In this document: piece after piece, positions 12,292 to 39,854 of the stretch | Numbering within the stretch: position 1 is the stretch's first letter | Layout: every line of letters starts with the position of its first letter | Source of the DNA: Actinospica acidithermotolerans | GTDB taxonomy: Bacteria; Actinomycetota; Actinomycetes; Streptomycetales; Catenulisporaceae | NCBI RefSeq assembly: GCF_018139625.1 | Contig: NZ_JAGSOH010000052.1 | Location: forward strand, 1-47,381 | DNA: 47,381 nt | Direction: 5' to 3' | Program-made: the position numbers and the translations under genes | Notes under the pieces: model-generated | Told to the model about the DNA's origin: nothing | The model's database searches: none | The model's input: only the letters and a program-made list of their open reading frames with translations

Positions 12292-12320
12292 TTGACAGCC
12301 TCGTTGTTACCGATAACTAT
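12292..12320 (+). promoter_or_regulatory. Probable sigma-70-type promoter of the sugar ABC operon
   Basis: TTGACA at 12292-12297 is followed after a 16-17 bp spacer by TAACTAT at 12314-12320. The LacI-type operator at 12305-12318 lies inside the spacer and overlaps the -10 element, an ideal position for repression. The predicted transcript would have a leader of about 110 nt before the GTG start at 12439. Confidence 0.65.
12305..12318 (+). promoter_or_regulatory. LacI-type operator O1
   Basis: TGTTACCGATAACT contains the inverted repeat GTTA/TAAC around a CG-containing centre. It matches the consensus TGTTAnCGCTCACA derived from five sites in this window. It lies between the -35 and -10 elements of the ABC operon promoter. 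Confidence 0.65.
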
Positions 12321-12437
12321 TCATCCAGACGCCGCAGCAGACGCGCACAGCGGCCGAAAACCACCCGGGCACGACGGCCGATCCGGCCTGCCGGTCCACC
12401 CGAACCCCCGTCCCGCGCGCCGTCCTGGAGCTGAGAT

Positions 12438-12451
12438 TGTGAGCGCTAACA
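12438..12451 (+). promoter_or_regulatory. LacI-type operator O2, overlapping a start codon
   Basis: TGTGAGCGCTAACA is a near-perfect palindrome around AGCGCT. Read on the other strand it is TGTTAGCGCTCACA, the best fit to the regulon consensus. It covers the GTG start of the first permease gene, 120 bp downstream of O1. The two sites could therefore act together by looping or as a roadblock. Confidence 0.7.
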
Positions 12452-13380
12452 TAGCCGAGGTGGCAACGAAGCCGCCCGTGGCCGCCGCCGCGCCGCGGCG
12501 CGCCCGGCGCGGACGCACCACCCTCGAGGCCTACCTGCTGATCGGGCCGAGCCTGTTCGGGTTCCTCGCGTTCCTGGTCGCGCCGGTCGTCATCGTGTTC
12601 GTGCTCAGCCTGTTCAGCTGGAACCTGATCACCTCGCCGCAGTTCGTCGGCCTCGCGAACTACCGCAGGATGTTCACCGATTCGCAGTCCTGGCACGCGC
12701 TGCTCAACACCGCGTACTACGTGGTCCTCAACATCCCGCTGCAGACGGTTCTCGCGCTGCTGCTCGCGCTGGCGCTGAACCGGAGGATGCGCGGGACGAG
12801 GTTCTTCCGCGTCGTGTTCGTGCTGCCGTGGATGGCGATGCCGGTGGCCCTCGGCGTGATCTGGAACTGGATCTTCGACCCGCGCTCCGGAATCATCGAC
12901 CACATCATCTCCATGCTCGGATTCACCGGCCCGAACTGGCTGACCTCGAGCACCTGGGCGATGCCGGTCGTCGCGTCCGTCAACGTCTGGCAGTACACCG
13001 GCTACACGATGCTCTTCCTGCTCGCCGGGCTGCAGGCGATACCGCAGCAGGTCTACGAGGCGGCCGCGCTCGACGGCGTCAACGCCTGGCAGCGCTTCTT
13101 CCGGATCACCCTCCCGCTGCTGCGGCCGTCGATGTTCTTCGTGCTCGTCACCAACGTCATCGGCTCGTTCCAGCAGTTCGACACCGTCTTCGTGATGACC
13201 CAGGGCGGCCCGGGCCAGTCCACGACGACTCTGAACTACTACATCTACCAGCAGGCCTTCCAGCTCTTCCACGCCGGCTACGCGGCCACGCTCTCCATCC
13301 TGCTGTTCGCGGTGATCCTCCTCGTGACGATCGTTCAGTTCCGCTACTTCCGCAAGCGCACCATCTACGACTTCAGCTGA
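12439..13380 (+). CDS. Sugar ABC transporter permease, MalF/UgpA type
   Basis: About 313 residues from GTG 12439, chosen because GGAG at 12427-12430 lies eight bases upstream. The longer open frame begins inside the promoter. A basic N-terminal tail (RRARRGRTTLEAYLL) is followed by six membrane segments. The cytoplasmic EAA loop reads QVYEAAALDGVNAWQRFFRI, the contact with the ATPase subunit. AMPVALGVIWNWIFDP and QQFDTVFVMTQGGP are typical of binding-protein-dependent carbohydrate permeases (CUT1). It pairs with the next gene. No ATPase gene is present, so a shared MsiK-type ATPase elsewhere is inferred. Expression is presumably controlled by O1 and O2. Confidence 0.93.
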   Translation: MSANIAEVATKPPVAAAAPRRARRGRTTLEAYLLIGPSLFGFLAFLVAPVVIVFVLSLFSWNLITSPQFVGLANYRRMFTDSQSWHALLNTAYYVVLNIPLQTVLALLLALALNRRMRGTRFFRVVFVLPWMAMPVALGVIWNWIFDPRSGIIDHIISMLGFTGPNWLTSSTWAMPVVASVNVWQYTGYTMLFLLAGLQAIPQQVYEAAALDGVNAWQRFFRITLPLLRPSMFFVLVTNVIGSFQQFDTVFVMTQGGPGQSTTTLNYYIYQQAFQLFHAGYAATLSILLFAVILLVTIVQFRYFRKRTIYDFS

Positions 13381-13393
13381 GGAGGACGACCCG

Positions 13394-14230
13394 ATGGCAA
13401 CGAAGCGAATCGGACAACGCGTCCGCGGCACGACCGTCTACCTGCTGCTCTCGATCGGCGCGCTCCTGTCGGTGGCGCCGTACCTGATGACCCTCAACGC
13501 CGCGTTCAAGCCGCAGTCCACCCTGCTGTCCACGCAGGCCTGGACCCCGGCCGCGCCCGCGACCTGGTCCAACTTCACCGAGCTGTGGCGGCAGTACGAC
13601 ATGTCCGGGTTCATCGTGCACACCACGATCGTGGCCGGCGTGATCACGATCGGGCAGCTGGTCTTCACGACCATGTCCGCGTACGCGTTCGCCCGCCTCG
13701 ACTTCCCCGGCCGCGAACCGCTGTTCTGGGGCTTCATCGCGATGATGATGGTGCCTCAGATCGTCACGCTGATCCCGCTGTTCCTGATCATGAGCCACCT
13801 GCAGCTGATCGACACCTACCGCGCGCTGATCCTGCCCTACGTCTTCGGCACGCCCTACGGGATCTTCCTGGTCAGGCAGTACTTCCAGACCATCCCGGCC
13901 GATCTGGAGGCCGCGGCCAGGATCGACGGCGCCGGGACCTGGACGATCCTGCGGCGGATCATGCTGCCGCTGAGCAAGCCGATCCTGGCCACGCTCGCCA
14001 CGATCACCTTCGTCAACACGTGGAACGGCCTGCTCTGGCCGCTGATGGCCACCAGCAGCGAACGCGACGAGGTGGTCACCGTCGGCATCGCCGCCCTGCA
14101 GGGGCAGTTCGCCTCCGAACTGCACATCCTGCTGCCGGCCGCGGCCGTCGCCCTGCTCCCGCTGGTCGCCATCTTCCTGCTGTTCCAGCGGCACATCGTC
14201 CGGTCGATCGCGCTGACCGGTCTCAAGTAA
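13394..14230 (+). CDS. Sugar ABC transporter permease, MalG type
   Basis: 278 residues. It starts at ATG 13394 behind a strong AGGAGG ribosome binding site, 13 bp after the MalF-like gene. It has six membrane segments, with the EAA loop at residues about 170-190 (DLEAAARIDGAGTWTILRRI), the hallmark of CUT1 inner-membrane components. FVNTWNGLLWPLMATSS and the ending QRHIVRSIALTGLK (final GLK) are typical of MalG homologues. It heterodimerises with the MalF-like protein to form the translocation channel. The gene order permease-permease-binding protein differs from the more common binding-protein-first order. Confidence 0.94.
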   Translation: MATKRIGQRVRGTTVYLLLSIGALLSVAPYLMTLNAAFKPQSTLLSTQAWTPAAPATWSNFTELWRQYDMSGFIVHTTIVAGVITIGQLVFTTMSAYAFARLDFPGREPLFWGFIAMMMVPQIVTLIPLFLIMSHLQLIDTYRALILPYVFGTPYGIFLVRQYFQTIPADLEAAARIDGAGTWTILRRIMLPLSKPILATLATITFVNTWNGLLWPLMATSSERDEVVTVGIAALQGQFASELHILLPAAAVALLPLVAIFLLFQRHIVRSIALTGLK

Positions 14231-14281
14231 CCGCCCGTCCCCATCCGCAAAGCACAGCCACAGAGAAGTGGACTGATTCCG

Positions 14282-15637
14282 ATGTTCCGACGCGCCACCA
14301 GAAAGACACTCGCCCTCGCTGCCGCCGCGGTTTCAGCGGCCGGCCTGACCTCCGCCTGCGGCGGGTCCTCCGGCTCCTCCGGCGGAACGGTGAACCTGAC
14401 CTACATGATCTGGCAGACCAGCGAAGAGGCCGCCTACCAGCAGTCGATCGACGTGTTCGAGAAGGCGCACCCGGACATCCACGTCACCATCGACCTCGTG
14501 CCGTGGGCGCAGTACTGGGCCAAGCTGCAGACCTCGGCGGCCGGGCGCAACATGCCGGACGTGTTCTGGGACCACCTGGAGTACCTGCCCGAGCTCGCGA
14601 AGGAGGGGATCATCACCAACATCGCCCCGGACATCGCGTCCTCGAAGATCGACATGAGCCAGTACAGCTCCAAGCTGGTCGCGCAGTGGTCGAACGGGAG
14701 CACGGTCTACGGCCTGCCGAAGGACTGGGACACCATAGCGACGATCTACAACGCGAAGGACCTGAAGGCGGCGGGCATCACCCCCGCGCAGCTCGGCTCG
14801 CTCAGCTGGAACACGACCGACGGCGGCACGTTCGTGCGGGCCTTGGAAAAGCTCACGGTGGACGTCACAGGCAAGCACCCGAACGAGGCCGGCTTCGAGG
14901 CGAACCACGTCAAGCAGTACGACATCGCGCTCGAGGCGCCGAACGGCCAGCAGGACTGGTGGGACTTCGGCGTGCAGAACGGCTGCGAGCTGCAGAACAA
15001 GCCGTACGGCACCTGGACGGTGAACTCGGCCGCGTGCGTGCAGGCGATGCAGTTCGAGCAGGACCTGATGTACAAGTGGCACGTCGCGGCCCCCGGCACC
15101 GTCACCAACACGCCGAACGCCGCCGCGCTGCCGCAGCTGCTCGCGCAGGACACCGCCGCCATCACCTTCGACGGGGACTGGGACCTGGACACCTACCAGA
15201 GCTCGCTGCCCGCCGGCAGCTGGGGCGTGGCCGCGCTGCCGACCGGCCCGAAGGGCTCCGGCACCGTGTTCAACGGCCTGACCGACGCGATCTACTCCGG
15301 CACCAAGCACCCGGCCGAGGCCTGGGAGCTGGAGGAGTGGCTCGGCTCGGCCGCCTCGGAGAAGATCGTCACCGACTCCGGCACGGTCTGGGCCGCGATC
15401 CCCAGCCTGGACAGCGGGTTCATCGCCGCCTGGAAGGCCAAGGGCATCGACGTCTCGGCGTTCTACACCGGGTCCCAGGGCACGACGATCGGCTATCCGC
15501 TGACCACCTCGGGCACCGCGTTCACCAACGTCGTGCTCAAGGACATGAACCAGGTCTGGCTCGACCAGATGACCCCGCAGGCCGCGGCGAACGACATCAC
15601 CACCACGTCGAACGCGGCCGCCGCCAACGGGGATTAA
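14282..15637 (+). CDS. Extracellular sugar-binding lipoprotein of ABC transporter
   Basis: 451 residues. The signal peptide (residues 1-25) ends in LTSAC with the lipidated Cys at 26, followed by a Gly/Ser linker. The mature part follows the cluster-1 (MalE-type) fold: VNLTYMIWQTSEEAAYQQSI, FEKAHPDIHVTIDLVPWAQYW, PDVFWDHLEYLPELAKEG, GLPKDWDTIATIYNAKDL and AITFDGDWDLDTYQSS. It captures an oligosaccharide at the outer membrane face and delivers it to the two permeases upstream. Neighbouring alpha-galactosidases suggest a galactoside such as melibiose, raffinose or a galactomannan fragment. This specificity is inference. Confidence 0.94.
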   Translation: MFRRATRKTLALAAAAVSAAGLTSACGGSSGSSGGTVNLTYMIWQTSEEAAYQQSIDVFEKAHPDIHVTIDLVPWAQYWAKLQTSAAGRNMPDVFWDHLEYLPELAKEGIITNIAPDIASSKIDMSQYSSKLVAQWSNGSTVYGLPKDWDTIATIYNAKDLKAAGITPAQLGSLSWNTTDGGTFVRALEKLTVDVTGKHPNEAGFEANHVKQYDIALEAPNGQQDWWDFGVQNGCELQNKPYGTWTVNSAACVQAMQFEQDLMYKWHVAAPGTVTNTPNAAALPQLLAQDTAAITFDGDWDLDTYQSSLPAGSWGVAALPTGPKGSGTVFNGLTDAIYSGTKHPAEAWELEEWLGSAASEKIVTDSGTVWAAIPSLDSGFIAAWKAKGIDVSAFYTGSQGTTIGYPLTTSGTAFTNVVLKDMNQVWLDQMTPQAAANDITTTSNAAAANGD

Positions 15638-15658
15638 CGTTTACCCTACGAGGACCGA

Positions 15659-16726
15659 GTGACAGGGAGCGGTAACATCAACACCGACACGCCGACGACT
15701 CCGCCCGAGCGCGGGCAGGGCGCCACCAGCATCTGGGAGGTGGCTCGCGCCGCCGGCGTGTCGCACCAGACCGTCTCCCGGGTGATCAACGGCAAGCCGC
15801 ACGTGCGGCCCGAGACCCGGGCCCTGGTGCTGGCGACCATCGAGGAACTCGGCTTCACCCCGAACCGCGCCGCGCAGGCCCTGGCCGGCGGCCCCGTGCG
15901 CGCCGTGACGGTGCTCACCGCCGACACGGCGGCGTACGGGTACGCCGCGGCCCTGCGCGGCATCGAGGAGGCGGCCCGCGCCGCCCGGTTCACCGTCGGC
16001 ATCAGCGTTCTTGAACCGGACGCGGCGCGCCAGCCGCAGGACGTGATCGAGCGGCTCTCCGCCGGGCGGGCCGCGATCGTGATCGCGTTCGAGGCGGCCG
16101 GCGTGCGCGCGCTGGACGCGCTGCCCGAGAACCTGCCGGTGGTCGGGGTCGTGGAGCGCCCGGCCTCGGGCCACGTCCCGGACGGCCGGCCGCAGGTCTG
16201 GATCGACGACCGCGAGGCCGCCTCGCGCGCGACGCGCCACCTGCTCGGCCTCGGCCACCGCACGGTCCACTACCTGTCCATCCCGTCCTCGACCCAGCGG
16301 CCGAGCCAGCGCATGCAGGGCTGGCAGGACGCGCTGCGCGCGGCGGGAGCCCCGGTCCCGCCGCAGCACCCGGCGGGCTGGACGCCGCGCTCGGGCTATC
16401 GCGCGGCCCGCGGGCTGGTCGCCGACCGCGAGGTCACCGCGATCCTGGCGGGCAACGACGATCTCGCGATCGGCGTGCTGCGCGCGGCCCGGGAGGCGGG
16501 CCGCGACGTGCCCGGCGACCTGAGCGTCATCGGCTTCGACGACGCGCCCCAGTCCGCGTACCTGAATCCGGCGCTGACCAGCGTGCGCCTCGACTTCGAG
16601 GGGCTCGGCCGGGCCGGGTTCGGCCTGCTGCACAACCTGCTCGACCCGAACGCCGCCGCGGCGCCCCCGGTCTGGGACGAGCCCGAGCTGATCCTGCGCG
16701 AGAGCAGCGGCCCCGCGCCGCGCTGA
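15659..16726 (+). CDS. LacI family transcriptional repressor
   Basis: 355 residues from GTG 15659, preceded by GAGGA and 21 bp after the binding-protein gene. The N-terminal helix-turn-helix spans residues about 24-70 (TSIWEVARAAGVSHQTVSRV, NGKPHVRPETR), with the LacI hinge FTPNRAAQALAGG. It continues into a periplasmic-binding-protein-like effector domain: ILAGNDDLAIGVLRA and DLSVIGFDDAPQSAYLNPAL. It lies between the transporter and glycosidase genes. Operators of one family surround it, including one inside its own first codons (15664-15677), so it is the probable regulator of the whole locus and of galM, with autoregulation. The inducer is likely galactose or a galactoside. Confidence 0.93.
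   Translation: MTGSGNINTDTPTTPPERGQGATSIWEVARAAGVSHQTVSRVINGKPHVRPETRALVLATIEELGFTPNRAAQALAGGPVRAVTVLTADTAAYGYAAALRGIEEAARAARFTVGISVLEPDAARQPQDVIERLSAGRAAIVIAFEAAGVRALDALPENLPVVGVVERPASGHVPDGRPQVWIDDREAASRATRHLLGLGHRTVHYLSIPSSTQRPSQRMQGWQDALRAAGAPVPPQHPAGWTPRSGYRAARGLVADREVTAILAGNDDLAIGVLRAAREAGRDVPGDLSVIGFDDAPQSAYLNPALTSVRLDFEGLGRAGFGLLHNLLDPNAAAAPPVWDEPELILRESSGPAPR
15664..15677 (-). promoter_or_regulatory. LacI-type operator O3 inside the 5' end of the lacI-like gene
   Basis: On the minus strand the site reads TGTTACCGCTCCCT, 11 of 14 matches to TGTTAnCGCTCACA excluding the free position. It covers codons 2-7 of the repressor gene, consistent with autoregulation by roadblock. Confidence 0.55.
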
Positions 16727-16827
16727 CCCGGCACCGGCGCCGGCCGGGCCCGCCGAACCGCCGACCCACCGATCCGCCGAACACCGACCCGCCGACCCAC
16801 CAGGCCCGGCCTGTCGCCGGCGGGCCA

Positions 16828-16841
16828 TGTTACCGCTCACG
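16828..16841 (+). promoter_or_regulatory. LacI-type operator O4 upstream of the GH36 gene
   Basis: TGTTACCGCTCACG differs from the regulon consensus only at the last base. It ends two bases before the ATG at 16844, at the head of the GH36 and GH-A hydrolase operon. Confidence 0.65.
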
Positions 16842-16843
16842 GA

Positions 16844-18745
16844 ATGGATCTCGTCATGCCCGCGATCGCGCACTCCCGCGACCACCGACTCTGGGTGCTG
16901 ACCGCCGCAGAGTCCTGCTACGTGCTGCACCTCGACGATGACGACCTCCTCCACGGACTGCACTGGGGGCCGGCGCTGACGCCGGAACAGGCGGTCACCC
17001 TCCTCGACTATCCGCCGCCGCGTCCGCGCAGCTGCGAGGATCCGCGCGACGGCACGCTGGACCTGAGTGCGGCCGGGGGGGCGCGCTATGCCCACGCGGG
17101 CCTCCAGGTCCGCTTCGCCGACGGCACCCGAGACCTGGAGCTCCGGTTCACCGGACACCGGGTCGCCGAGAACGACCTCGTCCTGACCTTCGCGGACAAC
17201 CACTACCCGCTTGCCGTCGAGACCCACTACCGCGTGTGCGCGGGCAGCCCGGCCATCGAGCGCCGTCTGACGGCCCGCCACACCGGTGATCCTTCCGCCG
17301 ACCCGATCCGGATCACCCGTGCCGACTCCGCCACCTGGATCCTCCCGACGCTCGCCGACTACCGGCTCAGCCAGAGCTACGGCCAATGGGCCGCCGAGAA
17401 CCAGGTCTCCCGCAGCACCCTGGCACGCGGCGCCACGGTTCTCGGCAGCGGACGCGGCGTGAGCAGCCATCATGCGAGCCCCTGGGCGATGATCGACGAC
17501 GGTTCCGCGACGGGGGAGCACGGCGCCGTCTACGGAACGACGCTCGCCTGGAGCGGCAACTGGCAGATCATCGCCGACCGCCTGCCGAGCGAGCGCCTTT
17601 CGCTCTCTGTCGGCGCGGCACACGTCCCCGAGACTCGGCTCCTCGAACCGGGGGACGAGCTGAGCACGCCGGTCAGCGTCGGCATGTATACCGAGGGCGG
17701 CTTCGGCGCCGCGAGCCGCGCGTGGCACGACTACATCCGTGCGAACGTCATCCCGCACCCGGACGAGGCGCGCCCGGTGCTCTACAACTCCTGGGAGGCG
17801 ACCGAGTTCGACGTCAGCGTCAAGGCGCAGATGGCGCTGGCGGATCGTGCCGCAGCCCTCGGCGTCGAGCTGTTCGTCATGGACGACGGCTGGTTCGGCC
17901 GCCGCGTCGACGACACCGCGGGCCTCGGCGACTGGACGCCGAACCCGGACCGCTTCCCCGACGGACTCGGCCCGCTGATCGAGCACGTACACGGCCTCGG
18001 CATGAAGTTCGGCCTCTGGGTCGAACCGGAGATGGCGAACCCGGACAGCGACCTCTATCGCGCTCGCCCCGATTGGATCATCTCCCGGCCGCAACGCCAC
18101 CGCACCCGGATACGGGAGCAGCACGTGCTCAACCTCGCGCGTTCGGACGTCGCCGAGTGGGTGCACGCGACGATCGAGCGGCTGCTGAGCGAAAACGCCA
18201 TCGACTTCCTCAAGTGGGACATGAACCGGCCGCTCACCGAGGTCGGTGACGACACGTCGGTGATCGACTACGTCACCAATCTCTACGCGATCCTCGACCG
18301 GCTGCGCGCCGACCACCCCGCGCTGCGTATCGAGAACTGTTCGAGCGGCGGCGGACGCGTCGACCTGGCCGCGTGCCCCGACGCTGAACTCGCGAGGCTC
18401 GGCGAGCTGATCGCCGCGTACAAGTCGGTCCGCCACGTGGTCCAGCTCGGCGTCCAGCACCGGCTCGGCCCATCGCACGCCGTTCAATTCCTGGCGCGTG
18501 ACGGCAGCGAGCTCGTCGTCCTCGCCTTTCACAACTCCAGCCGCTTCGGCCGGCCCGCCGCCGCCCTGCCTTTGCGCGCCCTCGACCCGCAGGCCGTCTA
18601 CCGGGACACCGCCACCGGCGGAGGCGTTCACCACGGCGCCGTCCTGATGACCCGGGGCCTGCCCCTCGACCTACCCGCCGGGGAGTGCGCGAGCACCCTG
18701 ATCCACCTCCGGCGGGTCGGGCTCTCACCACACCGAATGGAGTGA
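16844..18745 (+). CDS. GH36 alpha-galactosidase with internal deletion of the acid/base segment
   Basis: 633 residues; family members are usually about 700-730. It starts at ATG 16844 or 16856; neither has a clear ribosome binding site. The N-terminal beta-supersandwich (1-300) leads into the barrel: VLYNSWEATEFDVSVKAQMA, ELFVMDDGWFGRR and GLWVEPEMANPDSDL. The nucleophile motif FLKWDMNRP puts Asp at 459. After ENCSSGGGRVDLA (497-509) the sequence jumps directly to CPDAELARLGELIAAYKSVR. Relatives carry about 70 more residues here, including the acid/base Asp in a DNTD/DQTD-like motif. The frame is continuous. The enzyme would be cytoplasmic (no signal peptide). Without the acid/base and barrel strands it may be inactive. 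The second GH36 at 21431 retains this part. Confidence 0.85.
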   Translation: MDLVMPAIAHSRDHRLWVLTAAESCYVLHLDDDDLLHGLHWGPALTPEQAVTLLDYPPPRPRSCEDPRDGTLDLSAAGGARYAHAGLQVRFADGTRDLELRFTGHRVAENDLVLTFADNHYPLAVETHYRVCAGSPAIERRLTARHTGDPSADPIRITRADSATWILPTLADYRLSQSYGQWAAENQVSRSTLARGATVLGSGRGVSSHHASPWAMIDDGSATGEHGAVYGTTLAWSGNWQIIADRLPSERLSLSVGAAHVPETRLLEPGDELSTPVSVGMYTEGGFGAASRAWHDYIRANVIPHPDEARPVLYNSWEATEFDVSVKAQMALADRAAALGVELFVMDDGWFGRRVDDTAGLGDWTPNPDRFPDGLGPLIEHVHGLGMKFGLWVEPEMANPDSDLYRARPDWIISRPQRHRTRIREQHVLNLARSDVAEWVHATIERLLSENAIDFLKWDMNRPLTEVGDDTSVIDYVTNLYAILDRLRADHPALRIENCSSGGGRVDLAACPDAELARLGELIAAYKSVRHVVQLGVQHRLGPSHAVQFLARDGSELVVLAFHNSSRFGRPAAALPLRALDPQAVYRDTATGGGVHHGAVLMTRGLPLDLPAGECASTLIHLRRVGLSPHRME

Positions 18746-18755
18746 ATGCACAGCC

Positions 18756-21320
18756 ATGAAACGCATCCGCGCAATGTCGCGCGCCGCGGTCTCGGCGCTG
18801 CTCGTCACCACAGCCGCGAGCGCCGGGGCGATGGCCACCCCGGCGGCCGCCGCCACCTCCACGTTCACCGTCAACCTCGGCACCAGCACCGGCGCCATGA
18901 TGCACGGCGCGAACGGCGCTCTCTACGGCGTGTCCGACGCCGGCGTCCCGTCCGCGAACCTCGTGACGCCCCTCAACGTCACGACGATCGCGCAGGGTCC
19001 GCCCGGGGACACCCAGCACCCGAACGGCGACGCCGGGAAGATCTCGGCGTCCTTCGAGCAGGAGGACAGCAACGGCAAGATCCTGGTGTACCTCCAGGAC
19101 ATCTACTCGTCGTGGCCGTACCCGACCGAGACCGAGTCGGCGTACCTGTCCGAGGTCAACACGATCATGGCGGAGATCTACGCGAGCCCGCAGCGCGCGG
19201 ACTTCGAGATCGTCCCCTACAACGAGCCCGACCAGCAGTGGTTCGACCTCGGCGGAGGCTCGTCCTACTACAGCAACTTCTACACGTGGTGGGACGCGAC
19301 GTACGCCGAGATCGAGTCCGACGATCCGGGCGCGATCGTCGTCGGGCCGAACGAGTCCGGCTTCGACTCCTCGTTCCTCCCGGCGTTCCTCGCGCACGCC
19401 AAGTCCGCCGGCACGCTGCCGAACGTGATCAGCTGGCACGAGCTGTCCGGCACCAGCCTGTCGAACTTCGCCACGCACTACGCGGACTACCGCGCCGACG
19501 AGACCGCCGCGGGGATCACCACCCCGATCCCGATCGACATCGACGAGTACGGCAACCGCTCGGACCTGTCCGTGCCCGGCCAGCTCGTGCAGTGGATCGC
19601 CATGTTCGAGAAGGCCAAGGTCTACGCCGACATGGCCTACTGGGACATCGCCGGCAACTTCGACGACCTGATGACCGGCCAGAACACGCCGACCGGTGCG
19701 TACTGGCTGTACTACTGGTATGCCCGGATGACGGGCAACAGCGTCTCGGTCACGCCGCCGTCCGCCAACACGGTGGACACGCTGCAGGGCGTCGCGTCGT
19801 ACAACACGACCGAGAAGCAGGCCCAGGTCATCCTAGGCGGCTCCTCCGGGGCCGCGAACACGGTGATCAACGGGATCTCGTCGAGCGTGTTCGGCTCCTA
19901 CGTCACGGCGACCGTCGAGGCGACGAACTGGTCCGGTTACTCCGGCGCCGGCACGACGCCGCAGGTGATCTCCCGGACGACGTACTCCACGTCCTCGGGC
20001 TCCATCACGGTCCCGTTGACGAACATGAACTCGATGTCGGCGTACCGGATTGTGCTGACCCCTTCGAACGTCTCCTCCGCGACGACGCCGACGGTCCCGT
20101 CCAGCTCGACGTATTACGCGGCCGCCGCGTCGATCACCGACGCGACGGTCTACGCGCAGGGCTCGGAGAGCAACCCCAGCGGGTATGCCACCGCGGACAC
20201 CGAGGACGTCGGCTCGATCGACAAGTCGGACAGCGCGGTGACGTTCACCGTAACGGCGCCGAGTTCCGGTTCGTACAACCTCGCGATCTACTACGGCAAC
20301 CAGACCGGGACGTACGCGCAACAGGCGTTGAGCATCGACGGAGTGGCCGACGAATTCGTCGACTACCCGGCCACGCTCAACTGGCTGTGGCGCGACTACG
20401 TCACCGTGCCGGTCACGCTGACCGCCGGCACGCACACGATCACGCTCGCGGTCGACAACTCGACGCTCGGCGACTCGATCGGCCAGGTCACGCTGGACCA
20501 GATCGTCCTGACCGCGGCGTCGTCGGCGGCGACCGTGTACGAATCCACGATGGGCCGCACGTCGGGCACGGTTTCGTACGACTACTCCGCCTCCGACGGC
20601 ACCGGCGAGGGCGCGATCGACCTGGCCTCGGGCGCCGGCTCGACCGTCGACGTGTACGCGCCGTCCAACGGCTACTACACGACCGACGTGCGGTACTCCG
20701 CGGCCGCCGGCAGCAGCCTCACGCTCACGGCCAACGGCGAACCCGTCGCCGGTTCCTCGCTCCCGTCCACGTCCGGATCGGTCTCGACGGTCGCCGCCTC
20801 GGTGTACCTGCAGGCCGGGATCAACCCGGTCACCGTCACCGCGAACGGCACCGGAACGGTCCAGGACGTGCAGGTCGCGGCTTCACCGAGCAGCACCGGC
20901 ACGACGTACCAGGCGGAGAGCTCGTCCAACACGCTCGCCGGAACCGCGGCGGTCGAGACGGACACGTGGGCGTCGGGGGGCGAGTACGTCGGCTGGGTCG
21001 GCGACGCCTCGGCCAACACGCTCACGTTCAACAACGTGTACGCAGCGACGGCCGGCACGTACATGCTGGTCATCGCGTACTCGAACGATGACACGTCGGG
21101 CTCCGGCAACTACAACTCCAACATCGAATCGCGCTGGGCCCAGGTGTCGGTGAACGGCGGCGCCGCCACCACGGAAGTGTTCGCCAACACCTACAGCTGG
21201 GACAGCTTCCGCACCGTCGCCATGCCCGTGACCCTCAAGGCCGGCGACAACACGGTCGAGTTCTCGAACTCGACCGGCTACGTCCCGAACCTCGACTACA
21301 TCCAAGTGGCCCAGCTGTAG
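18756..21320 (+). CDS. Secreted clan GH-A glycoside hydrolase with carbohydrate-binding modules
   Basis: 854 residues, starting 10 bp after the GH36 stop codon in the same operon. The signal peptide ends near AAAATS (about residue 33). The catalytic domain (about 35-440) has Glu157 in IVPYNEPDQQW as candidate acid/base and Glu264 in PIDIDEYGNRSD as candidate nucleophile. These NEP and E-Y patterns are those of clan GH-A barrels such as GH39. Residues about 455-590, 590-715 and 720-854 form beta-sandwich modules. The first and last end with LDQIVL or LDYIQVAQL, the signature of CBM6/CBM35 domains. It probably degrades a plant hemicellulose or galactoside polymer outside the cell. The exact family and substrate are uncertain. 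Confidence 0.82.
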   Translation: MKRIRAMSRAAVSALLVTTAASAGAMATPAAAATSTFTVNLGTSTGAMMHGANGALYGVSDAGVPSANLVTPLNVTTIAQGPPGDTQHPNGDAGKISASFEQEDSNGKILVYLQDIYSSWPYPTETESAYLSEVNTIMAEIYASPQRADFEIVPYNEPDQQWFDLGGGSSYYSNFYTWWDATYAEIESDDPGAIVVGPNESGFDSSFLPAFLAHAKSAGTLPNVISWHELSGTSLSNFATHYADYRADETAAGITTPIPIDIDEYGNRSDLSVPGQLVQWIAMFEKAKVYADMAYWDIAGNFDDLMTGQNTPTGAYWLYYWYARMTGNSVSVTPPSANTVDTLQGVASYNTTEKQAQVILGGSSGAANTVINGISSSVFGSYVTATVEATNWSGYSGAGTTPQVISRTTYSTSSGSITVPLTNMNSMSAYRIVLTPSNVSSATTPTVPSSSTYYAAAASITDATVYAQGSESNPSGYATADTEDVGSIDKSDSAVTFTVTAPSSGSYNLAIYYGNQTGTYAQQALSIDGVADEFVDYPATLNWLWRDYVTVPVTLTAGTHTITLAVDNSTLGDSIGQVTLDQIVLTAASSAATVYESTMGRTSGTVSYDYSASDGTGEGAIDLASGAGSTVDVYAPSNGYYTTDVRYSAAAGSSLTLTANGEPVAGSSLPSTSGSVSTVAASVYLQAGINPVTVTANGTGTVQDVQVAASPSSTGTTYQAESSSNTLAGTAAVETDTWASGGEYVGWVGDASANTLTFNNVYAATAGTYMLVIAYSNDDTSGSGNYNSNIESRWAQVSVNGGAATTEVFANTYSWDSFRTVAMPVTLKAGDNTVEFSNSTGYVPNLDYIQVAQL

Positions 21321-21430: not shown

Positions 21431-23479
21431 ATGATCATCACCTTCGGGCACGCCCTGGAACTGGACCTCTACTGCGCCGAGGGCGAGCCGCCGCGGCTGG
21501 CCGCGCTCCGGGCCGGCGGTTCCCCGCTCGCGGCCGAGAGCACGGATCCCGCGACGCTCGACATCCTTCCGCTGTCGCACATCGAACTCGCCGGCCACTC
21601 GCGCGAGCACATCAACGGCAAACGCCACATCGGCGGCGCCGTATCCTCCCGCCTCCAGTACGTGCGCCACGACATCACCCGCGCCGGGCAGGCACTGCTG
21701 CTGGAGATCACCTCGCGCGATCCCATCACCGACCTGACCGTCGTCGCCCGAATCGAGCAGCACCCTGACATCGCTGCCATCCGCAGCTCGACCCGGGTCA
21801 CCGCCGGCTCGCACGAGGTCGTGCTGTTGCACGTGGCCTCGCTGGTGATCCCCGGCGTACTTGCGATCGCCGACACGGCCCTTGGCGCGGCCGGCCGCTG
21901 GGAGGACCGCCTCACGGCGTGGACCGCCGCCAATCCGTGGTGCGGCGAAGGCCGCTGGACCTCGGCCACCCTCTCCCAGCGCGGCCTGACCGCGACCGAG
22001 AAGCCCGACGCGCGCAACCGCTTCGCGCTCGCCAGCACCGGATCGTGGTCCTCGTCCGAGCACCTGCCGATGGGCGCGCTCACGGACGAGCACACCGGTC
22101 GCGCCCTCGCCTGGCAGATCGAGCACAACGGCTCGTGGGCCTGGGAGATCGGCGACACCCACGACGCGGTGTACGTCAGCCTGTCCGGCCCCAGCGACGC
22201 CGAAAGCCAGTGGTCGAAGGTCCTCGCCCCCGGCGAGAGCTTCACCACCGTACCCGCGACCCTCGCCGCATCCGCCCACGGCCTCGAGGGCGCGATCGGC
22301 GAGCTCACCAAGCACCGCCGCGTCACCCGCCGCCCGCACGCCGACCTCGAGCGCCTGCCGATCATCTTCAACGACTACATGAACTGCCTCGGCGGCGATC
22401 CGAGCACCGACCGCCTGCTGCCGCTCATCGACGCGGCGGCCCGGGCCGGCGCCGAATACTTCGTCGTCGACGCCGGCTGGTACGACGACACCGACGGCTG
22501 GTGGGACAGCGTCGGCGAATGGCAGCCCTCGACGGTGCGCTTCCCCGGCGGCCTCGACAAGGTGATGGAGCTCGTGCGCGAACGCGGCATGACCCCCGGC
22601 CTCTGGCTGGAGCCGGAGGTGGTCGGCGTACGCAGCCCGATGGCCGGCAGCCTGCCGGACGGGGCCTTCTTCCAGCGAGCGGGCCGACGGCTGACCGAAC
22701 GCGGCCGCCACCAGCTGGACTTCCGCCACCCGGCGTCCCGTGCACACCTCGACGCGACCGTCGACCGCCTCGTGAGCGAGTACGGCATCGGATACTTCAA
22801 GCTCGACTACAACATTGAGGTCGGACCCGGCACCGACCACGCCGCCGACAGCGCCGGCGACGGCCTGCTCGGCCACAACCGCGCGTACCGTGCGTGGATC
22901 GACGGCGTCCTCGACCGCCATCCCGGCCTCGTCATCGAAAGCTGCTCCTCCGGCGGCATGCGAACCGACTACGCGATGCTCGCCGCCACCCAGCTGCACT
23001 CCGTCACCGATCAGACCGACTTCCACCGCCTCCCGGCCATTGCGGCAGCCGCCCCGATGGCCGTGACCCCGGAACAGTCGGCCATGTGGGCGTACCCGGT
23101 CCCCGCGATGACCGACCGCGAGACCGCCTTCAACCTCGCCGGCGCCCTGCTCGGCCGCATCCACCTCAGCGGCCGCCTCGACCTGCTGCGCCCCGAGCAG
23201 GAAGCCCTCGTCCACCAGGCCCTTGCGGCCTACCGCGAGCTGCGCCCCCACCTGCCCGCCGCGCTCCCGCACTGGCCCGTCGGCCTGCCCGCCTGGCGCG
23301 ACGGCTGGGTGGCCCTGGCCCTCGAAACCGACGGGCCCGACCGGGATTCCCCCGTCGCCGGCTACGTCCTGGCCTGGCGTCGCGACGCCGACGACCTCGC
23401 CTGGCACCAGGAGGTCCGCTCCCTCACGGTCCGCCTCCCGGAGTGGTCGGCGGTCCTGGTGCGGCTGACCCGCGTCTGA
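21431..23479 (+). CDS. GH36-type alpha-galactosidase, intact
   Basis: 682 residues from ATG 21431, no signal peptide, so cytoplasmic. The N-terminal beta-sandwich domain (1-300) precedes a TIM barrel: IIFNDYMNCLGGDPSTDRLL, AEYFVVDAGWYDD and PGLWLEPEVVGVRSPM. The nucleophile is Asp459 in YFKLDYNIEVG. SCSSGGMRTDYAML (504-517) is followed by SVTDQTDFHRLP, with Asp527 as candidate acid/base. The conserved catalytic layout matches GH36 of clan GH-D. It would release galactose from oligosaccharides imported by the ABC system. It lies after two hairpins and so probably has its own promoter, but no clear LacI operator was found directly upstream. It supplies the catalytic segment missing from the GH36 at 16844. 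Confidence 0.88.
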   Translation: MIITFGHALELDLYCAEGEPPRLAALRAGGSPLAAESTDPATLDILPLSHIELAGHSREHINGKRHIGGAVSSRLQYVRHDITRAGQALLLEITSRDPITDLTVVARIEQHPDIAAIRSSTRVTAGSHEVVLLHVASLVIPGVLAIADTALGAAGRWEDRLTAWTAANPWCGEGRWTSATLSQRGLTATEKPDARNRFALASTGSWSSSEHLPMGALTDEHTGRALAWQIEHNGSWAWEIGDTHDAVYVSLSGPSDAESQWSKVLAPGESFTTVPATLAASAHGLEGAIGELTKHRRVTRRPHADLERLPIIFNDYMNCLGGDPSTDRLLPLIDAAARAGAEYFVVDAGWYDDTDGWWDSVGEWQPSTVRFPGGLDKVMELVRERGMTPGLWLEPEVVGVRSPMAGSLPDGAFFQRAGRRLTERGRHQLDFRHPASRAHLDATVDRLVSEYGIGYFKLDYNIEVGPGTDHAADSAGDGLLGHNRAYRAWIDGVLDRHPGLVIESCSSGGMRTDYAMLAATQLHSVTDQTDFHRLPAIAAAAPMAVTPEQSAMWAYPVPAMTDRETAFNLAGALLGRIHLSGRLDLLRPEQEALVHQALAAYRELRPHLPAALPHWPVGLPAWRDGWVALALETDGPDRDSPVAGYVLAWRRDADDLAWHQEVRSLTVRLPEWSAVLVRLTRV

Positions 23480-38960: not shown

Positions 38961-39854
38961 ATGTCGATATTCGAGCCCGAAGACACCTCCCGCGGCCGCT
39001 GGCGGCTGGCGATCCGGCACGAGACCGTGCTGCGCTACGACGGGCCGGTCCGCGCGTCGTACAACGAGCTGCGGATGACCCCGCTCGACACGGCGGCCCA
39101 GACCCGGCTGAGCAGCCGCGTCGAGATCGGCCCGGCGGCCCAGCCGTGGCACTACACCGACTACTGGGGCACCCGGGTGACCAGCTTCGACCTCCAGGAC
39201 CCGCACGAATCGCTCACCATCCGCGCGAGCTCCGTCGTCGAGACCAGCCCCTCGGCCTGGGCCGAGCCGGCGGCCGCCGAGCACCGCGACGAGTCCTGGG
39301 ACGCGATCGAGACCGCCGTGAAATCCGGCGACCTCGCCGAGTTCACCGCGCCCACGGCCCGCACCAAGCTCACCCCGAGGCTCCAGCAGGAGCTCCGCGA
39401 GCGCGTGGACGGCGCCGGGCCGCACACCGCCGCCGAGCGCATCTGCGGCTGGATCCACGAGGCGATGGCCTACGTCCCCGGTGCCACCGGCGTGCACACC
39501 AGCGGCCGCGAGGCCTGGGAGAGCAAGTCGGGCGTCTGCCAGGACTTCTCGCACATCGCCATCGGCATGCTCCGCGCCGCGGGGGTGCCGGCCCGCTACG
39601 TATCAGGCTATTTGTTCCCGCTGAAGGAGTCGACGCCCGGCGTCAGCTGCGAGGGCCAGAGCCACGCCTGGACCGAGTACTGGGCCGGCGACTGGTACGG
39701 CATCGACGCGACCAACAACGTCGCCCCCGGTCTGCGCCACGTCGTCGTCGGCCACGGCCGCGAGTACACCGACGTCGTCCCGCACAAGGGCATCTACCTC
39801 GGCGCGCCGGACAGCACCCTGACGGTCTCGGTGAAGCTGACCCGGCTGGCCTGA
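38961..39854 (+). CDS. Transglutaminase-like cysteine protease family protein
   Basis: 297 residues from ATG 38961, 21 bp after the alpha-E gene. The N-terminal beta domain (RHETVLRYDGPVRASYNELR) is the bacterial transglutaminase-associated domain. The core (about 140-297) has the Cys-His-Asp triad: Cys193 in KSGVCQDFSHIAIGML, His235 in QSHAWTEYW and Asp249 in YGIDATNN. GVPARYVSGYLFP links them. These enzymes are generally thought to be peptidases or amidases rather than true cross-linkers. In this operon it would cleave or transfer the peptide made by the ATP-grasp partner, which is inference. A hairpin terminator follows at 39920. Confidence 0.94.
   Translation: MSIFEPEDTSRGRWRLAIRHETVLRYDGPVRASYNELRMTPLDTAAQTRLSSRVEIGPAAQPWHYTDYWGTRVTSFDLQDPHESLTIRASSVVETSPSAWAEPAAAEHRDESWDAIETAVKSGDLAEFTAPTARTKLTPRLQQELRERVDGAGPHTAAERICGWIHEAMAYVPGATGVHTSGREAWESKSGVCQDFSHIAIGMLRAAGVPARYVSGYLFPLKESTPGVSCEGQSHAWTEYWAGDWYGIDATNNVAPGLRHVVVGHGREYTDVVPHKGIYLGAPDSTLTVSVKLTRLA

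Follow-up and report, generated by a model that had tools for sequence, protein, structure and literature searches.

The question raised by this locus is whether a GH36 gene whose frame is open, but whose product lacks a large part of the catalytic barrel, is a recently inactivated enzyme gene, a fault of the assembly or a protein retained for binding or sensing. These three options were left side by side in the preliminary description of the window (the whole stretch of 47,381 nucleotides analysed). The analysis carried out here indicates that the gene, named GH36a, is most probably an alpha-galactosidase-family gene recently inactivated by a 216-bp deletion between short direct repeats. The features considered are the following:

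12292..15637, + strand: ABC sugar importer, two permeases and a solute-binding protein, intact by comparison with relatives
15659..16726, + strand: LacI-family regulator gene, intact by comparison with relatives
16827..16842, + strand: LacI-type operator-like site ATGTTACCGCTCACGG, directly ahead of GH36a, with a related site at the same place in the genome G001
16844..18745, + strand: GH36a, GH36 gene with a 72-codon internal in-frame deletion (open reading frame, Pfam and relatives), likely start at 16856
18218..18220, + strand: codon of the nucleophile Asp (KWDMN, residue 459), kept (sequence; family role according to PMC7688924)
18338..18352, + strand: CSSGG motif following barrel strand 6, kept (sequence)
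18360..18369, + strand: deletion junction, TCGACCTGG then C; GACCT flanks the corresponding block in G001, G002 and G014
18756..21320, + strand: 854-aa CBM35 protein, intact, its catalytic part resembling solved chains named as family 5/39
21431..23479, + strand: GH36b, second GH36 gene, with barrel and DQTD present and a C-terminal domain that is short near 23390

The GH36a frame (16844-18745, forward strand) encodes 633 amino acids and is open throughout; the ATG at 16856 is its likely start because the nearest relatives begin MPxIAH. The product belongs to GH36 by sequence, with matches of 145.9 bits to Glyco_hydro_36N (positions 3-242 of 253), 284.5 bits to Melibiase and 56.5 bits to Glyco_hydro_36C (positions 3-77 of 77), the Pfam cut-offs for the three domains being 27 bits. 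The Melibiase match covers only positions 3-247 of 347 and leaves the final 100 positions of the catalytic model without a match. The nucleophile Asp of the K-W-D-x-N motif is present at residue 459 (KWDMN), as previously described, and ENCSSGGGR is also kept, followed by an in-frame jump to the helix located after the barrel.

An alignment with full-length relatives has confirmed the earlier claim that about 70 residues are missing in frame. In GH36a the AAY(K/R) helix follows CSSGG after 20 residues, a value that it shares with none of the 91 aligned relatives (91 of 116 loci, read on one strand only with 150 bits required, and including the identical pair L076/L098). The GH36 frames of this pair belong to G007, a genome of the same family as the window, and to Catenulispora pinistramenti NL8. 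Spacings of 88-93 were found in 88 of the 91 (92 in 66, 91 in 14, 88 in four and 93 in four), and the values 63 (L068), 80 (L055) and 103 (L074) occurred once each, the L068 frame extending to the end of its 4041-base contig. Comparison with the commonest spacing of 92 therefore gives 72 codons (216 bp) missing from GH36a. The spacings originally reported for GH36a and GH36b, 31 and 101, have been recounted as 20 and 89, and the difference between them was nearly right (70 reported, 69 counted). In the closest orthologue, the segment without counterpart runs from DLGMLVRTDQVWPSDNTD to GVLGVGL. The acid/base Asp (DNTD) that follows strand 7 is present in the orthologues of the same genus and absent from GH36a, as had been proposed. 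Smaller gaps in GH36a, of 6-7 residues after LTEVG and of five after HRLGPS, were set aside as lesions, loop length being variable among relatives at these places. The third-position GC content of GH36a is 0.90 (0.84 in G002 and 0.91 in G001).

Structure prediction with AlphaFold2 agrees with the alignment. The GH36a model has six barrel strands, the last one at 491-493, and then a helix at 509-531 (numbering from 16856), whereas the model of the full-length relative L009, used as a control (pLDDT 91.4), has the eight strands of a complete (beta/alpha)8 barrel. In the L009 block without counterpart in GH36a (residues 513-584), the model places three strands (519-521, 547-551 and 576-579) and two helices (528-538 and 565-572); the strands at 519-521 and 576-579 are read, on the model, as barrel strands 7 and 8. 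This block also takes in 13 alignment columns that do not vary among 52 relatives (54 chosen from 80 related loci, less two with a stop), the same 52 that served for the structure alignments. The GH36a model reached a pLDDT of 87.9 and a pTM of 0.88, with a dip to 73-74 around the join, values that are driven by the alignment; since AlphaFold2 is no test of stability, the model is not evidence that the protein folds.

In a Foldseek search with the GH36a model, GH36 enzymes still ranked first, with AgaB of Geobacillus stearothermophilus (4fnq, 28% identity) at a TM score of 0.89 by query length and 0.78 by target. AgaB and AgaA (4fnr) of this organism align with the N-terminal domain, the barrel up to strand 6, the nucleophile motif and the C-terminal domain of GH36a, but nothing in GH36a corresponds to AgaB residues 535 to about 600-605. 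The AgaA mutants D478A and D548N are named in PDB titles, and position 548 falls inside the lost block. PMC7688924 gives Asp478 and Asp540 as the catalytic pair of RgAga, and names Trp537 and the acid/base Asp540 within subsite -1. As judged by alignment, the first member of the catalytic pair is kept in GH36a and the second is lost.

The sequence at the join and its distribution bear on how the block was lost. The GH36a join reads CGCGTCGACCTGGCCGCGTGC, and the corresponding sequences in G002 are GTGGACCTGGGG at the left end of the block and CTCGACCTCGCCGCGTGC at the right end. Asp-Leu codons are found in register at both block ends in the relatives, with a shared in-register run of five bases in G002 and six in G001 and G014, and GACCT is present at both ends in these three genomes; the repeat ends are those of the relatives. 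In the background, in-register runs of at least five bases occur at 298 of 5832 positions (about 5%) and runs of at least six at 116, so a deletion by slippage between short repeats fits the ends with moderate support that falls short of strong proof.

The orthologues of G002 and G001, which belong to the same genus, are located directly after a LacI gene, like GH36a, and are 75% and 71% identical to it up to the gap and 55-65% after it; both are full length with DNTD, but GH36a lacks 72 of their residues. A scan with the junction peptide gave matches in 35 of 395 other genomes of the phylum and in 12 of 13 other genomes of the family, and the same join was not found in any other GH36 of these genomes. 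Outside the window the matches stop by residue 38 of the 60-residue query, except in G370, where a match running through the junction was rejected as a chance match because it lies antisense to an unrelated gene. Orthologues of the same short length were found neither among the 91 relatives nor in the scanned genomes. The lesion is therefore private to one lineage within the genomes searched, in which the species is represented by a single strain.

A recent deletion is favoured because none of the other genomes searched shares the loss, which coincides with a putative short direct repeat and takes away core fold as well as the acid/base residue. The Asp-Leu codons at each end would have served as two short direct repeats between which the 216 bp were removed, probably by slipped-strand mispairing in replication, with an in-frame loss of 72 codons. 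The product would be left without barrel strands 7 and 8, the part between them and the acid/base Asp. With these elements lost, the protein should be unable to run the two-step retaining mechanism and would probably form no stable barrel. We infer the slippage origin, the recency of the event and the inactivity and instability of the protein from the observations above; the conservation of both frame and operator and the fair confidence of the GH36a model are points against inactivation.

Bacterial pseudogenes can arise by deletion between short direct repeats. GH36a resembles those that do in that its gap, which may end in a repeat, occurs in one genome only and has left the flanking genes unharmed, and differs from them in keeping its frame. 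Because the frame is kept, an annotation pipeline would probably treat GH36a as an ordinary gene. It would thus be a clean example of a probably dead enzyme that automatic annotation would likely call an alpha-galactosidase. As a process this is well known, and the case is of an ordinary kind, its more notable side being the three parallel lesions described below.

The option that survives best after a recent inactivation is an assembly or consensus artefact, in which the 216 bp exist in the organism but were dropped, likewise the missing part of GH36b; it is considered unlikely, but it retains some weight. The genome is a draft of 422 contigs, and three of its GH36 genes appear damaged. GH36b had been used as the intact yardstick for GH36a, and this holds for its barrel, with DQTD present, but not for its C-terminal domain, in which about 26-33 residues are missing in frame near 23390. 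Only 13 residues separate WRR from the next conserved strand in GH36b, compared with 39-46 in 12 of 13 relatives and 73 in the other one, L144 (13 of 20 loci, after removal of six weaker matches and of the window). A third GH36 gene, on contig C387 (L005, G000:C387; a frame of 746 codons from locus position 1051), contains a premature in-frame TAA, and about 80 further in-frame residues behind it resemble the remainder of the C-terminal domain.

Several observations argue against a fault of the assembly. Both large gaps in the GH36 genes of the window preserve the frame, and the run of 5-6 bases shared at the join in relatives is far below the k-mer length of assemblers, whose k-mers are much longer than that. 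When the missing 72 residues were sought elsewhere in this genome, the only significant matches were to the corresponding parts of the C318 and C33 paralogues. Compared with G001, internal gaps of more than seven residues are absent from the importer, LacI and CBM35 genes, setting aside the upstream run-on of the stop-to-stop frames of G001, and no internal stops are present among the LacI-family matches listed for this genome.

The three lesions suggest, at the level of sequence, a lineage that is losing the GH36 enzyme class, and an assembly fault is a less likely source of this pattern than such a loss. The number of residues following the nucleophile motif is 244 in C318 and 257 in C33, 172, 221 and 177 in the three damaged genes and 251-276 in the eight genes of G001 and G002. 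Short genes thus account for three of the five long GH36 genes of this genome (G000) and none of the eight of G001 and G002, a count that omits the weakest Melibiase matches (two in each genome); a one-sided Fisher test, calculated by hand, gave about 0.035 for this small, after-the-fact comparison. If the three lesions are real, the genome records the loss of an enzyme class while the importer and the regulator are still whole, and it could help to order the steps of sugar-operon decay. As a separate observation, the acid/base pattern was unmatched in the GH36 gene of contig C666 of G001, though its length is normal.

The age of the lesion was considered through rate and selection tests. Relative-rate tests were even, with 46 changes in GH36a to 55 in G002 (chi2 0.80) and 50 to 56 in G001 (chi2 0.34). 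The dN/dS ratio was 0.29 for GH36a and G002, 0.36 for GH36a and G001 and 0.26 for G002 and G001. Polarised amino acid to silent changes were 35:15 in GH36a versus 27:21 in G002, and 37:17 versus 25:17 in G001. In a set of 144 highly conserved columns picked without reference to the window, GH36a and G001 showed 10 departures each and G002 six, 10 being the joint maximum among 70 sequences (the chosen set read on both strands, 70 of 70, less one duplicate). The last three measures lean mildly to relaxed selection and against a very recent event. Long-term relaxed selection is not clearly indicated, the rates being even and no clear long decay being found, though the other measures lean slightly towards it. 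GH36a is probably not long dead, since a long-dead gene should show clearer decay.

Retention of GH36a as a non-catalytic GH36 for sugar binding or sensing would agree with the even rates, with the open frame and with the preservation of the operator, the nucleophile and much of the sugar-binding part. This reading is very improbable, because the loss of two barrel strands, together with part of subsite -1 (Trp537 and Asp540 of RgAga in PMC7688924), means that the pocket is not whole. A second genome with the same state was not found among the 91 relatives or the 395 phylum and 13 family genomes, and this genome has two further GH36 genes with damage of other kinds. It is slightly less probable still that a six-stranded, non-catalytic partner has been kept, e.g. 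for pairing with another GH36 in the oligomer or for holding sugar in the LacI circuit, catalysis having moved to the intact C318 and C33 paralogues. A shortened working enzyme with another acid/base, to which six barrel strands and both terminal domains would remain, is hardly credible given the absence of strands 7 and 8 and of 13 invariant columns, and given that no short relative was found in the same searches.

The operon containing the probably inactivated GH36a consists of the ABC importer, LacI, GH36a, the CBM35 protein and GH36b, an order that is the same in G001. In the stretch examined in G002 the nearest counterpart of the CBM35 protein is 28% identical and GH36b is located elsewhere, and in G014 the CBM35 gene precedes GH36a. 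The clean operator previously noticed ahead of GH36a is substantiated by a search for sites related to ATGTTACCGCTCACGG (16827-16842) with up to three mismatches, which yielded four matches versus 0.58 expected in shuffles. Two others belong to the same operon (12437-12452 and 15663-15678) and one lies elsewhere (39612-39627), and the three operon sites share GTTANCGCTC. One precedes the importer, one overlaps the opening codons of the LacI gene and one precedes GH36a, and the sites are placed likewise in G001; in G002 there is one operator-like site ahead of the importer, but none ahead of the GH36a orthologue. The position of the middle site within the first LacI codons suggests that this gene is autoregulated.

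Among solved chains, the 854-aa CBM35 protein is nearest to 5u22 and 8uwt; 8uwt is named as a possible beta-xylosidase of family 5/39, and no catalytic Pfam match was obtained for the CBM35 protein. GH36b matches the NCBIfam beta-L-arabinopyranosidase model over positions 7-670 of 730 with 534.8 bits, under the cut-off of 1100, which makes arabinopyranosides as plausible a substrate as galactosides.

When positions 12292-18745 were compared with L118 and L119, the importer and regulator genes were nearer to G001 (85-91%) than to G002 (80-87%). GH36a reverses this trend, with 70.5% identity to G001 and 73.9% to G002, and these opposite orders may reflect a replacement of GH36a in one of the lineages.
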